Below are positions 18,569-22,338 of a DNA stretch of 25,148 nt, piece after piece. A program made the translations under genes and the position numbers. This DNA comes from a virus: positions 1 to 25,148 of the IMG/VR virus record IMGVR_UViG_3300045999_003304. One strand, given 5' to 3'. Positions within the stretch are counted from its first letter, which is position 1; every line of letters begins with the position of its first letter. The notes under the pieces were generated by a model. It had not been told where the DNA came from. It searched no databases and saw only the letters and a program-made list of their open reading frames with translations.

Positions 18569-18601
18569 AAAAGCCAAGAGGGTTGTCTCCAGAGGCGATC
18601 T

Positions 18602-18618
18602 GCCTGAAATTGCCGATC
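18602..18618 (-). repeat. Junction motif copy (GGCAATTTCAGGC)
   Basis: Minus-strand GGCAATTTCAGGC follows the TGA of the 123-residue gene after two bases and lies upstream of the tail tube gene. It is identical over 13 bases to the copy upstream of the portal gene. Confidence 0.65.
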
Positions 18619-18988
18619 AGGACCGCAGCAGCTCCGCCTGGCCGCCGGCCTTGGCGTAGAGGTTGGAGAAGCGGCCGTCGTAGCCGATGGCCAGCGACAG
18701 CTGCTCACGCCAGTAGGCCTGCTGGGTGCGGATGCCGGCGAGCTTGGCCTCGGGGTTGCCGGGCTGCCATTCGAGAACGTCGGCGCGGATCAGGCCCAAG
18801 TCTTCAGAGGCCTTGGCTTCAAAGCTGGTTTCGAGGGTGTTGAGCTTGCCGATAGCGCTCTGGCTGGTGGTGATGGAGGCGGCAGAGGCCTCAGCCATCA
18901 GCACGTCGAGGTGATCGAGGGCGATGGTGGTGGCCGGGATGGCGAGGTGGCGGCGGATTGCTTCGCGGTCAGTGGAAACCCAGGCCAT
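18617..18988 (-). CDS. Small helical head-tail connector-like protein (123 aa)
   Basis: ATG start at 18988. The 123-residue product is mostly helical and begins MAWVSTDREAIRRHLAIPAT. It contains SAIGKLNTLETSFEAKASED and ends with RFSNLYAKAGGQAELLRS. In this position, just after the portal and MuF genes, many phages encode a small helical adaptor that docks on the portal; that role is inferred only from position, size and predicted helicity. No known family is recognised with confidence. Confidence 0.6.
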   Translation of the reverse strand: MAWVSTDREAIRRHLAIPATTIALDHLDVLMAEASAASITTSQSAIGKLNTLETSFEAKASEDLGLIRADVLEWQPGNPEAKLAGIRTQQAYWREQLSLAIGYDGRFSNLYAKAGGQAELLRS

Positions 18989-19000
18989 GGCTAGTGCTTT

Positions 19001-19016
19001 TGCTTAGGTTGCCCCT
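19001..19016 (-). repeat. Junction motif copy (GGGGCAACCTAA)
   Basis: Minus-strand AGGGGCAACCTAAGC makes up the last codons (G-A-T) and stop of the minor head gene and lies 12 bases before the next ATG at 18988. Confidence 0.55.
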
Positions 19017-20863
19017 GCTGTTGGACGTGGCGGGCTCCACAGCGCCTCTGGCGCCTGCTCCATGCCCAAGCTCTTCTCAAACGGCGTCGGCCCGCTGATT
19101 GGTTGTTTGCCTGCGGCCTCCAGATCGGCCAGCACCTCCGCCCGTGCCTTGGCCTCCTCCTGCGGATCAATTAGCCCCAGCTCTTCCCATTCGGGATCCC
19201 AAGGGGTGACGGTGCAGCGGCAGTTATGGGTAACGCAGTTGTCTACAATGTATGAACTCGAATTCGTTGTGAAGTCATAAACAGGGATTGCCTCATGAAG
19301 CGTTTTGATCTGGACCACGAGAACCTCGTCAAGCTCTACAACTCCGGAGCCAGCGTCAAAGCACTCTCTGAGCAGCTCGGCTGCAGCAGGAATGTCATCA
19401 CTAGGAGGCTCAAGCAGCTCGGGATAGCTGTTCGAGGCAGAGGAGAGGCTCAGCAGCTCCGCATGGACCAACTCACGCCTGAAGGACGCAAACAGCTCAC
19501 GCGCAAAGCCAATCAAGCCGCAAGAGGCCGCATTGATAGCGAGGAGAGCCGCATCAAACGAGCTGAGACACGGTTCCATCGACAGCTCGGCATCTCCGCT
19601 TATGAGGTTGAGCTTCAGGGGGTCTTGATTAGCAAAGGCCTTACAACCAGCCTGCAGCTGCCGATTGGCAAATACAACATCGACTTGGCCGTTGATTGCT
19701 GCCCCATCGCCGTGGAATTGCACGGAGGCGGATGGCACCGTTATGGGCGGCACTGGGCTAGACGCCAAAAGCGCATTGAAGACATCCTCAGCGCGGGCTG
19801 GAGTTTGCTTGAGGTGTGGCAGGTCAATGCCAGATCCTGGAATCCCGCTGAGGTGGCGAATCAAATAGTCGCCTTGGCGGAGATCCATCGCCTTGACCCA
19901 TCCGCGCTGGGTGGCCATTGGATGATTGGCGGTGACGGTGACTTCGCCGTTACACGTACCAATGGCTACGAGATTCCCGCGATACCAAGCGCGAGTCGCC
20001 GCGATGACCGTACCGGTCGTTACAAGCGAGTCACCTAGGACGCAATTCGGGTGCGCCGGCGCCACCACATCCCCGAGGCGATACACCTTGCCGTGACGCG
20101 GGGCGCAATAGCCGCAGGTGCGGCTGCTGCCCACCGCCTGCCATTGCACTTGCTCAATGCCTTCAGCCTCGTAGCGCAGCTTGCTGCCTTCCACCATCGC
20201 TGCTGCCATCTCGGTGCGAGCGACGGTTTGAGCGCGGCTCTTGCTCAGCTCCACGCTGTTCTGCAGCGTCTTGCGCAGCTGCCGCCAGCTGTCGCCTGAG
20301 GCCAGGTGAAACTCCACGCTGCCGATGATGCGGCCGCGCAGGTCCACATCCACCAGGCGGTTCAAGGTGGCGAAGGCTTGGGTGCCCTTGCCGCCTGCGG
20401 CGTAGCTGGCCAGTGCGTTCTGCCGTTGCGCGGCGGCGATCAAGGCCGTGGGGTTCTGCTGCACCATCCCCGGCGAAAGGATGGCGGCCGGGTCCGTGAC
20501 GGCATCGGCGAAGACGGCAGCGGCCTGATCGGGTGTGAGCTTGCTGGCTTCTTGCTTGACCTTGTTCAGTTCAGCCAGTGCCCAGAAGTCGGCGGCCTTT
20601 TGTCCATCCAGCAGGGCCTGATTGACCGTCTGCCGCAGTTGCGGTGGCAGCGTCATGGTCTGCAGCTCCTGCTCCAGCTGCTGCCGCAGGATCAGCAACC
20701 GCTGGAGGGGGAAATCACCCGCGCCTTCTAAGGCCCGCTTGTAGGCGACTTCGATGCGCGGCTCCAGGGCGCGATAGGCACCGGTGAGACCGTCGATGAT
20801 GTCCCGCTCAAACGGGCCGAGTAGGGCATCGCTGAGCTGCTCCCAGCTGTCGGCGGCCTGCAT
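19004..20863 (-). CDS. MuF-type minor head protein interrupted by an intein (619 aa precursor)
   Basis: The ATG at 20863 shares one base with the portal TGA. The N-terminal extein (residues 1-273) is helical and ends in the MuF domain: RAQTVARTEMAAAM, then WQAVGSSRTCGYCAPRHGKV and APAHPN. The C-terminal extein (548-619) resumes at CRCTVTPWDPEWEELGL, restoring the conserved HPNCRC motif. Residues 274-547 are an intein that should remove itself, leaving about 345 residues. MuF proteins are minor head components that act with the portal and may enter the cell with DNA. The insertion hits the most conserved motif of the host protein, as is usual for inteins. Confidence 0.9.
   Translation of the reverse strand: MQAADSWEQLSDALLGPFERDIIDGLTGAYRALEPRIEVAYKRALEGAGDFPLQRLLILRQQLEQELQTMTLPPQLRQTVNQALLDGQKAADFWALAELNKVKQEASKLTPDQAAAVFADAVTDPAAILSPGMVQQNPTALIAAAQRQNALASYAAGGKGTQAFATLNRLVDVDLRGRIIGSVEFHLASGDSWRQLRKTLQNSVELSKSRAQTVARTEMAAAMVEGSKLRYEAEGIEQVQWQAVGSSRTCGYCAPRHGKVYRLGDVVAPAHPNCVLGDSLVTTGTVIAATRAWYRGNLVAIGTCNGEVTVTANHPMATQRGWVKAMDLRQGDYLIRHLSGIPGSGIDLPHLKQTPARAEDVFNALLASSPVPPITVPSASVQFHGDGAAINGQVDVVFANRQLQAGCKAFANQDPLKLNLISGDAELSMEPCLSSFDAALLAINAASCGLIGFARELFASFRRELVHAELLSLSSASNSYPELLEPPSDDIPAAAELLRECFDAGSGVVELDEVLVVQIKTLHEAIPVYDFTTNSSSYIVDNCVTHNCRCTVTPWDPEWEELGLIDPQEEAKARAEVLADLEAAGKQPISGPTPFEKSLGMEQAPEALWSPPRPTAGAT
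19244..19294 (+). promoter_or_regulatory. Possible promoter and ribosome-binding region of the endonuclease gene
   Basis: A TACAAT hexamer (19244-19249, plus strand) could be a -10 element about 46 bases ahead of the ATG at 19295; no good -35 is seen. A weak AGGGA stretch lies at 19283-19287. Both lie inside the C-terminal splicing block of the intein on the other strand, so any control signals there must coexist with splicing residues. Confidence 0.3.
19295..20038 (+). CDS. Homing endonuclease, HTH plus Vsr/EDxHD-like nuclease (247 aa)
   Basis: This is the only gene on the plus strand that I accept. Residues about 9-44 form a helix-turn-helix (LVKLYNSGASVKALSEQLGC, SRNVITRRLKQLGI), followed by a basic linker (TPEGRKQLTRKANQAARGR). 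About 90-195 match the Vsr/EDxHD branch of the PD-(D/E)xK nucleases: D130 in GKYNIDLAV, E141 and H143 in AVELHGGGWHRYGRH, then an RRQKRIEDILSAGWSLLEVW helix-strand. It should cut intein-free MuF genes and drive copying of the intein. The last about 60 residues lie opposite the N-terminal splicing region and may have little function of their own. The TAG stop is 6 bases from the intein boundary. Confidence 0.85.
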   Translation: MKRFDLDHENLVKLYNSGASVKALSEQLGCSRNVITRRLKQLGIAVRGRGEAQQLRMDQLTPEGRKQLTRKANQAARGRIDSEESRIKRAETRFHRQLGISAYEVELQGVLISKGLTTSLQLPIGKYNIDLAVDCCPIAVELHGGGWHRYGRHWARRQKRIEDILSAGWSLLEVWQVNARSWNPAEVANQIVALAEIHRLDPSALGGHWMIGGDGDFAVTRTNGYEIPAIPSASRRDDRTGRYKRVT

Positions 20864-22338
20864 CAGCTACCAGACTGCAGGGCCTGCGGGGGGAGCATGA
20901 CGTTCTGCTCAAGGAGCAGGCGATCCCGCTCCAGCTGCGCCTGCAGTTGCTGTTGATCGCTGCCATCCAGGCCGAGCACCTCCGCTTCCACATCAAAGTC
21001 AATGGGCAGGACTCCGCCGCGTTGGAGCAGTTCGAGGGTGGTCTCTTTGCTGATGTAGCCGCCATCGGCGAGGCTCTGGATCTGCGCCACCTGCTGCGGC
21101 TCCAGGCGCGACTCCAACGCTTGTGCAGCAATCTGCAGCGTGCCGGTGGGTTCATCGTTGGTGTACGCGCACCAGAGGAATTGCAGCTGCTCAAACAGGC
21201 TGGCCTTCTGCATCCCGGCCAGCGCCAGGCCGCTTTGCACCTGACCGGCCTGCAGCCTGGCTTGGGTGGCGGTGACGGCCTCCTGGCCGCTCATGAACGC
21301 CAGCGTCTCCTTGTTGATCAGCTGCTCGATGTGCAGCAGGTGTTCCTGCTGCTGCTGCAGGCTGCTGCCGGACGGTTCCGCGAAACGGAAATCGCCATCG
21401 ACCGGCACATCCACCACGCTGTTGGGGCCGATCACCAGCGGCGGTGGGGTCTGGCCATCCATCAACAGCGCACCACGGCGCACCGGCACCGGCAGGGCGC
21501 AGCGGTGCAGCAGCTCGTTGAGATCGGAGCGGCTGCGGTAGTGCTGCAGGGTGAGCAGCGCCAGCTCGCGGAAGGGCGGCAGGCCATGACCCCAGCGCTG
21601 CGGCTGCGGGCTGTACCAAACCAGCGGCACCTCGCTCAGGCTGGTGAAGCCTTCCTCCACCAGCTGCAGCTTGGTGGTGGCACCGAGCTGTTTGTTCAGC
21701 GCATACACCTGGAAGGCACCAGGGGTGAGCACGCGGAAGAAAGGCTCCACGGTGAAGCCAAAGCTGCCGGCTTCCACTTCACGCCATTCGAGCAGCGTGG
21801 CCTGCACCAGCTGCTCCTGGCCGGCGATGTATTCAGTCTTCCAGTTGAGGATGTTGCGGCGCTCCAGCAACACCAGATAGGGCTGACGGCCAAAGGCCAA
21901 GCGGTCGGCCTCAGATTCCACCGCCACCTGCTGCGGCATTTCGACCATGACGGCGCAACCGCCATCGCGCATGGCGAGGCTGTCGGCCATGGCCATGAAG
22001 GCCGTCAGGTTGTTGCCCAGTTGGTCAATGTCGTCGAGCTGCTGCTCCAGCGAGGCGGGCAGGTCGCTGAGGGTGAACTGCGAGAGGATGCCGCTCATGG
22101 CCTCAATGGCCTTGCGGAAGCTGGGCACGTAGGTGGCCCGCGCCAAGCGGTTGCGATAGGCGCGGTCGGGCTCCTTGGTTTCCTGCGGCAGGTAGGTGGC
22201 TTCACTACCGCGCAGGCCCAGCCAGCAGTCACCTAAGAGCTGCAGATCGGGCTCAATGTCCCGCAGGACCGGATGCTTCCAGGTCGGCAGGTTGGGCGCA
22301 TCGAAGAGATCGCCGTCAATGGCAGGCCTGCCGTCCAT
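20863..22338 (-). CDS. Portal protein (491 aa)
   Basis: Forms the dodecameric ring through which DNA enters the head. The sequence pattern matches a portal family found beside MuF genes (DUF4055-like): RAYRNRLARATYVPSFRKAI and GILSQFTLSDLPASLEQQLD near the N-terminus, SLAMRDGGCAVMVEMPQQ in the middle, RWGHGLPPFRELALLTLQHY, then a long helical C-terminal half (SLQQQQEHLLHIEQLINKET, AVTATQARLQAGQVQSGLAL). The ATG at 22338 follows a junction motif by about 17 bases. The stop is coupled to the minor head gene. Length is within the usual portal range. Confidence 0.85.
   Translation of the reverse strand: MDGRPAIDGDLFDAPNLPTWKHPVLRDIEPDLQLLGDCWLGLRGSEATYLPQETKEPDRAYRNRLARATYVPSFRKAIEAMSGILSQFTLSDLPASLEQQLDDIDQLGNNLTAFMAMADSLAMRDGGCAVMVEMPQQVAVESEADRLAFGRQPYLVLLERRNILNWKTEYIAGQEQLVQATLLEWREVEAGSFGFTVEPFFRVLTPGAFQVYALNKQLGATTKLQLVEEGFTSLSEVPLVWYSPQPQRWGHGLPPFRELALLTLQHYRSRSDLNELLHRCALPVPVRRGALLMDGQTPPPLVIGPNSVVDVPVDGDFRFAEPSGSSLQQQQEHLLHIEQLINKETLAFMSGQEAVTATQARLQAGQVQSGLALAGMQKASLFEQLQFLWCAYTNDEPTGTLQIAAQALESRLEPQQVAQIQSLADGGYISKETTLELLQRGGVLPIDFDVEAEVLGLDGSDQQQLQAQLERDRLLLEQNVMLPPQALQSGS

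Follow-up and report, generated by a model that had tools for sequence, protein, structure and literature searches.

The locus described here raises the question whether one segment of viral DNA can encode a protein-splicing element on one strand and, on the other, the endonuclease by which this element would spread. The window, i.e. the whole stretch of DNA that was analysed, comprises positions 1 to 25,148 of the IMG/VR virus record IMGVR_UViG_3300045999_003304 (25,148 bp), and its minus strand carries a head-tail gene module. An original prediction had placed a canonical intein into the minor head gene of this module and a complete, independently expressed plus-strand gene for an HTH plus Vsr/EDxHD-like nuclease entirely inside the intein DNA. 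The features on which the argument rests are the following.

19004..20863, minus strand: MuF-like minor head (head morphogenesis) gene, with exteins on both sides of the intein (PF04233, 2.8e-12; TIGR01641, 1e-13; phrog_15127, 8.6e-29)
19223..20044, minus strand: class-1-type intein of 274 aa (Cys1, block B TANH, block F VYDFTT, HN/C; the slash marks the junction here and below)
19283..19286, plus strand: putative Shine-Dalgarno sequence AGGG, 8 nt 5' of the nuclease ATG at 19295 (sequence reading)
19295..20038, plus strand: antisense homing endonuclease gene (cleavage inferred), complete ORF of 247 aa in exact codon register with the intein
19319..19453, plus strand: HTH DNA-binding domain of the nuclease, aa 9-53 (HTH_58, 9.7e-6; AlphaFold2 helices 8-16, 21-28 and 32-41)
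19607..19870, plus strand: Vsr/DUF559-like nuclease domain, aa 105-192 (MTES_1575, 8.6e-8; DUF559; 3r3p and 3hrl; Foldseek match 1vsr)
19703..19717, minus strand: sense motif FHGDG of the intein, exactly opposite PIAVE of the nuclease including the catalytic-type E141
19892..20038, plus strand: C-terminal tail of the nuclease, aa ~200-247, opposite intein blocks A and B (codon analysis, AlphaFold2)
20863..22338, minus strand: portal-like protein, upstream neighbour given as context (ORF, named from the head-module order in relatives)

The minus-strand element comprises 274 codons (822 nt) and reads CVLGDS...TANHPM...VYDFTT...THN/CRC, with Cys1 in CVLGDS, T38 and H41 in block B, a terminal His-Asn and Cys at position +1, and it is inserted within the HPN/CRC motif of the MuF minor head gene. 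Coordinates, Cys1, TANH and the His-Asn/Cys junction are exactly those originally proposed, and PF04233 and TIGR01641 identify the host gene as the MuF minor head gene named there. A profile search with the intein retrieved the KlbA intein 2jmz (5e-12), the Mtu RecA intein (1.7e-10) and further inteins, whereas PF14890 was matched in the inteins of relatives only under Pfam's own cut-off. In the AlphaFold2 model the splicing domain is built from residues 1-66 and 236-274, mostly with pLDDT values above 90, and Foldseek matches of the model are inteins. The linker 129-233, which sits opposite the nuclease, is largely predicted with pLDDT below 50 and mostly disordered, and no match between the sense linker and nuclease families was obtained in family and profile searches. 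The features expected of a class 1 intein (Cys1, a TxxH block B, block F, a terminal Asn with Cys at +1, and an in-frame position in the host protein) are all present, as are homology to known inteins and intein-free host alleles with an exact join. The presence of a class-1-type intein at 19223-20044 is thus confirmed, while splicing itself is inferred from its canonical residues.

The plus-strand ORF runs from ATG to TAG, starts 72 nt and stops 6 nt inside the two intein ends, and hence lies, as predicted, entirely within the 822 bp of intein DNA; nuclease codon position 1 faces intein codon position 3. Long antisense ORFs are frequent in the GC-rich window, so that the openness of this frame alone proves nothing. 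That both proteins are real is concluded from independent profile and structure evidence. The MTES_1575 match of the window nuclease remains under Pfam's own cut-off, but the family is matched by 28 of 40 members of the nuclease family, and a profile of 40 homologues hits the PDB entry 3hrl (5.5e-6) and the catalytic domain of the homing endonuclease I-Bth0305I (3r3p, 4.5e-4). The AlphaFold2 model of the nuclease has a mean pLDDT of 85 and exceeds 90 across most of residues 11-200, with the HTH domain at about 90 or above from residue 11 onwards; disorder is predicted at the end of the tail (220-236 and 241-247). The top four Foldseek matches are Vsr (1vsr, 1cw0), I-Bth0305I and 3hrl, with probabilities of 1.00 for 1vsr and 0.98 for I-Bth0305I. 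Owing to the HTH, linker and tail in the query model, the corresponding E-values are weak, the best being 5.9e-3, but the four nuclease matches agree with each other. Homologues of the 247-residue protein, whose absence among nucleases would have spoken against the original prediction, are therefore found in MTES_1575, I-Bth0305I and Vsr.

Among 51 non-redundant homologues, Y127, N128, D130 and E141 are invariant. The Vsr-like fold is accordingly accompanied by conserved acidic residues, D130 and E141 being joined by E104 in ca. 90% of the sequences. The conserved set E104, YNxD130, VE141 and R160 resembles MTES_1575/DUF559; a residue-by-residue match to the EDxHD signature could not be established. 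In summary, the plus-strand ORF, together with its HTH_58 domain, encodes a real HTH plus Vsr/I-Bth0305I-like nuclease, the cleavage activity of which is inferred.

A homologue search with the nuclease covered IMG/VR, GTDB genomes, INPHARED phages and PLSDB. At 75 of 76 nuclease-encoding loci (a count including a few near-identical contigs) the entire match lies inside a long ORF on the opposite strand, the codon grids being always in exact register; the host ORFs are head genes and one deaminase gene. Intein blocks A, B, F and G are carried by all 53 non-redundant aligned units, with Ala1 in two of them and, in several, Ser, Ala, Gly or Arg in place of the penultimate His. Retrieval with the sense intein, built on a closer sequence set rather than on the too diverse 39-sequence profile, yielded at least 561 relatives; an antisense nuclease of full length and identical register is present in all of the best 80, in 76 of which a simple pattern detects its YNxD...VE motif. 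Such relatives occur in about 120 public phage records, and the carriers, whose hosts are very diverse, include cultured Salmonella, Gordonia, Pseudomonas, Klebsiella, Vibrio and Mycobacterium phages and a Melioribacter-assigned MAG. The commonest insertion site is the HPx/C...HN/CRC motif of MuF, other hosts being Phage_min_cap2 (Rhodococcus phage REQ3) and portal-MuF fusions. In the cultured-phage records examined (Salmonella SE1 and LSPA1, Gordonia Vivi2, Cronobacter ES2, Pseudomonas CF23a, E. coli Snoke and others) the head gene alone is annotated; the Snoke entry names the intein as well, but not the nuclease. The distribution in cells and prophages is probably under-sampled, as a scan of genome contigs with degenerate peptides gave one locus only. 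Inteins with an antisense nuclease, homologues of which the original prediction had asked for, are a whole class and not a single case.

Several members deviate from the common arrangement. In Virus Rctr197k (L072 748-1632 (-)) the antisense-nuclease intein resides at PCVA/C in a dCMP deaminase gene (PF00383, 5.1e-11), at its zinc-binding PCxxC motif; this gene is annotated as head morphogenesis protein. Rhodococcus phage REQ3 (L071 2848-3522 (-)) contains a shortened unit with a 225-aa intein and Ala1, in which much of the HTH half of the nuclease is lost and the splicing blocks are kept; it possibly represents a decay stage. The nuclease at L005 4728-5771 (+) carries a second N-terminal HTH-like repeat, and its ORF extends 57 nt beyond the intein end into the N-extein. 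In P. aeruginosa phage CF23a (L066) the nuclease frame extends over 1197 codons from stop to stop, far past the intein, which is probably a GC effect. The intein-bearing MuF genes of Salmonella phages NBSal007, ZCSE7 and others are annotated as NAD+--asparagine ADP-ribosyltransferase; a genuine MuF-ART fusion (PF01129) exists in the Melioribacter MAG (L055).

Intein-less MuF alleles with an identical insertion point, proposed as a check on mobility, were also found. The same MuF gene without the intein is present in 21 IMG/VR contigs with 82-95% DNA identity, contiguous across AAT/TGC and with neither gap nor duplication at the join. In Salmonella Guernseyvirinae, an intein-containing gene of 1860 bp compares with an intein-free counterpart of 1042 bp over the matching 1858 bp; the length difference is exactly 816 nt or 272 codons and the exteins are 88-94% identical. 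Empty alleles so closely related imply a recent gain or loss of the unit. Presence and absence with exact joins is the pattern expected from homing; cleavage, conversion and splicing are themselves inferred.

We therefore consider it highly probable that the locus is a mobile intein with a homing endonuclease encoded by the strand complementary to its own linker, although no biochemical data on splicing, DNA cleavage, target site or plus-strand transcription stand behind this reading. In the proposed scenario, the MuF precursor from the minus strand would hold a Hint splicing domain built from both intein ends which, judged by its canonical residues, excises the intein and joins HPN to CRC. 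The plus strand would provide a separate, ATG-started gene, translated from a plus-strand mRNA into the HTH plus Vsr/I-Bth0305I-like nuclease, whose core faces the mostly disordered linker of the intein. This nuclease would presumably bind MuF alleles without the intein and cut them at the HPNCRC codons; the whole segment would then be copied into the cut allele by repair.

Counting against this reading, as the exception to the nested layout, is a free-standing relative of the nuclease in Acinetobacter phages P1068 (L070 2788-3723 (+)), IME285 and BUCT629. It is convergent with an intein-free MuF gene whose end it overlaps, the opposite strand being full of stops, and the P1068 nuclease groups loosely with the intein-borne nucleases of Klebsiella RCIP0054 and Edwardsiella MSW-3 (L067, L069) in the tree (SH-aLRT 92, long branch). 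The nuclease is consequently not strictly dependent on the intein, and it is conceivable, if improbable, that it is active for purposes other than intein homing, such as attack on competing phages elsewhere or antisense regulation of the head gene, with the intein serving as a safe harbour. An antisense mRNA would necessarily pair with the head-gene mRNA, and the plus-strand genes that run straight into the nuclease in L067 and L069 would also fit this view. On the other hand, homing predicts both the strict tie of the nuclease to insertion at a single conserved MuF motif and the existence of precise empty alleles, and even the free-standing copy sits at a MuF gene.

Slightly less credible still is that the nuclease is a relic of former homing and that the element now persists as an intein alone. 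Expression data are absent and the shortened REQ3 unit, with much of the HTH half gone, would be compatible with such a fate, but a full-length nuclease match in every one of the best 80 among at least 561 sense-retrieved relatives, with YNxD...VE recognizable in nearly all, is not, nor is the purifying selection that sister sequences reveal in the nuclease frame, nor the recent gain or loss implied by the close empty alleles.

Selection on the nuclease frame, another check suggested at the outset, was assessed by codon-position rates and by shuffling; it is supported by both. Under the nuclease core, intein position 1, which equals nuclease position 3, evolves fastest (0.516 per site vs 0.412 at intein position 3; p3/p1 = 0.80; 13 of 14 pairs), whereas at the C-terminal end of the intein, which is free of overlap, the order is reversed (0.307 vs 0.461; p3/p1 = 1.50; 12 of 13 untied pairs). 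The contrast between core and C-terminal end gives a Fisher p-value of 1.4e-7; the codon-position p-values are indicative only, as related sequences are not independent. The N-terminal region of the intein, opposite the nuclease tail, is intermediate (0.338 vs 0.397). To regard the tail as selected by the intein only is too simple, since its p3/p1 of 1.17 falls between the intein-only and the core values; the tail opposite blocks A and B is likely under some dual constraint. In the shuffle test, synonymous codons of the intein were shuffled 200 times per locus with the intein protein unchanged. For the window, only a single one of the 200 shuffles left the nuclease frame open, and the HMM score, 269 bits for the real sequence, averaged 83 bits. 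In 14 of 14 loci the score of the real nuclease lies at least 70 bits above that of the best among 200 such shuffles, the frame usually closing. Shuffled sequences retain ca. 60-120 bits because the two strands are linked. The losses upon shuffling and the flip in codon positions together argue that the nuclease is selected in its own right and that its signal is no mirror of the intein; on this evidence from sequence, both reading frames are under selection.

The weakest alternative, that the antisense ORF is a by-product of a GC-rich intein gene and its tblastn homologues merely mirror intein conservation, can invoke the many long spurious antisense ORFs in the window and the partial scores surviving the shuffles, but it is excluded for practical purposes by the reversed codon-position rates under the core, the margin of the real scores over the best shuffles, the independent profile matches to unrelated nuclease and HTH families and to solved structures, the conserved start and ribosome-binding-site codons described below, a frame that stays open even at 36% GC (L055) and the free-standing copy of the nuclease family.

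Selection on both frames implies that the two proteins are locked into a single codon register with common signals. The nuclease ATG lies, in about half of the units, exactly 60 nt from the C-terminal intein end, opposite the block F His (GHVYNLET), and in relatives a GAGG or GGAGG precedes this ATG opposite the YNL[EQ] codons of block F. The His codon is CAT, which gives ATG, in 28 of 31 cases (background in these genes 43%), and the Leu codon is CTC, which gives GAG, in 25 of 38 (9.5 +/- 2.5 expected). In many relatives the putative start codon and ribosome-binding site of the nuclease are thus the complement of intein block F. The ATG of the window is located 12 nt deeper, at 72 nt instead of the more usual 60 nt, and its putative ribosome-binding site is not that of block F; both points weigh against the main reading.

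A second signal of this kind is found at the active site, where the [FL]HGDG motif of the intein linker faces P-[VI]-A-V-E141 of the nuclease exactly in the relatives as well. His is conserved in 48, Gly in 47 and Asp in 47 of 51 sequences. The nuclease Val opposite the His is encoded by GTG in 48 of 49 Val cases (background 25%), the Ala by GCC in 47 of 49 (49%) and the Glu by GAA in 44 of 51 (48%), and in the second, sense-retrieved set the codon opposite the His is GTG in 74 of 76. The Asp of the motif is kept via GAC as well as GAT. This skewed codon choice cannot be explained by the nuclease alone and points to selection of the motif in the sense frame; a protein-level role of FHGDG in the intein would be the simplest reading, its function being unknown. 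We lean, with considerable reserve, towards viewing the unit as a dual-coded complementary gene pair, matched codon for codon, in which both proteins would be functional and mutually constrained, the start signals being the complement of block F and the active-site Glu that of FHGDG; a linker with its own protein-level role might stabilise the overlap, so that neither partner could easily be lost alone.

These shared signals also bear on expression. The two genes had been thought to be expressed independently, and a separate plus-strand gene is indeed present; full independence cannot be upheld, because the nuclease start and ribosome-binding site of relatives are built from block F and the frames constrain each other at the active site. 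A promoter scan revealed no sigma-70-like promoter near the nuclease gene of the window, a point against the main reading, but the scan is uninformative and the host unknown. In L067 and L069 the nuclease is directly preceded by rows of small plus-strand genes, which suggests, in the absence of expression data, expression by read-through from a convergent operon.

Mobile inteins are usually described either as one protein combining splicing and homing or as inteins lacking an endonuclease. The unit analysed here appears to act like a mobile intein, with splicing, cleavage and homing inferred, and it is conserved, widespread and overlooked: a large class of phage inteins keeps its endonuclease on the other strand, outside the view of annotation pipelines. 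It is also a natural example, on a large scale, of two proteins coded antisense to each other in a conserved and fixed register, with dual selection that can be measured. The questions of how a homing gene antisense to a head gene is expressed, whether the overlap shields a selfish nuclease from decay and what FHGDG does become testable, and cultured laboratory phages supply inteins and endonucleases for this purpose.

The open-licence literature, to which the search was restricted, yielded no account of an intein that contains an antisense endonuclease gene; an earlier report elsewhere is not excluded. The nuclease shares its fold with I-Bth0305I, an EDxHD homing endonuclease (3r3p) residing in a group I intron, and with Vsr (1vsr), but differs from both by an N-terminal HTH part and the invariant YNxD...VE. 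Split inteins with free-standing Vsr-like endonucleases were reportedly described as 'fractured genes' by Dassa and colleagues in 2009. As in these, a separate Vsr/EDxHD-type nuclease is tied to an intein insertion site in phages; unlike them, the window intein is uninterrupted (ORF 19004-20863, contiguous in relatives) and the nuclease overlaps it antisense instead of splitting its halves.

Nuclear group I introns may hold an antisense homing endonuclease gene, e.g. Didymium squamulosum L2066 (PMC9548176), which likewise lies on the strand opposite to the splicing element. That gene is situated in a non-coding RNA loop and dual coding is not needed, whereas the phage unit codes for protein on both strands and would use protein splicing; an Rfam search of 18600-20900 for self-splicing RNA at a permissive threshold gave only a chance-level mir-6132 hit (E 0.81). 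The ShiLan-type insertions in phage methylases are out-of-frame HNH genes on the same strand, with no intein or intron splicing domain detected (PMC11855218). They resemble the phage unit in that the insertion, itself open in the host frame, conceals in a different frame an endonuclease missed by annotation, and differ from it in strand, in nuclease type (here Vsr-like) and in the lack of a canonical intein. Full-length mobile inteins such as TliVMA/PhoVMA contain an in-frame LAGLIDADG or HNH endonuclease domain (PMC8966425). As in these, the Hint domain is interrupted between blocks B and F, the insertion occupies a conserved motif of an essential gene, and homing is inferred to depend on the element's own endonuclease; unlike in these, splicing and homing are not united in one polypeptide, which is the defining feature of the classical full-length type, as the endonuclease of the window is a separate protein encoded on the opposite strand.
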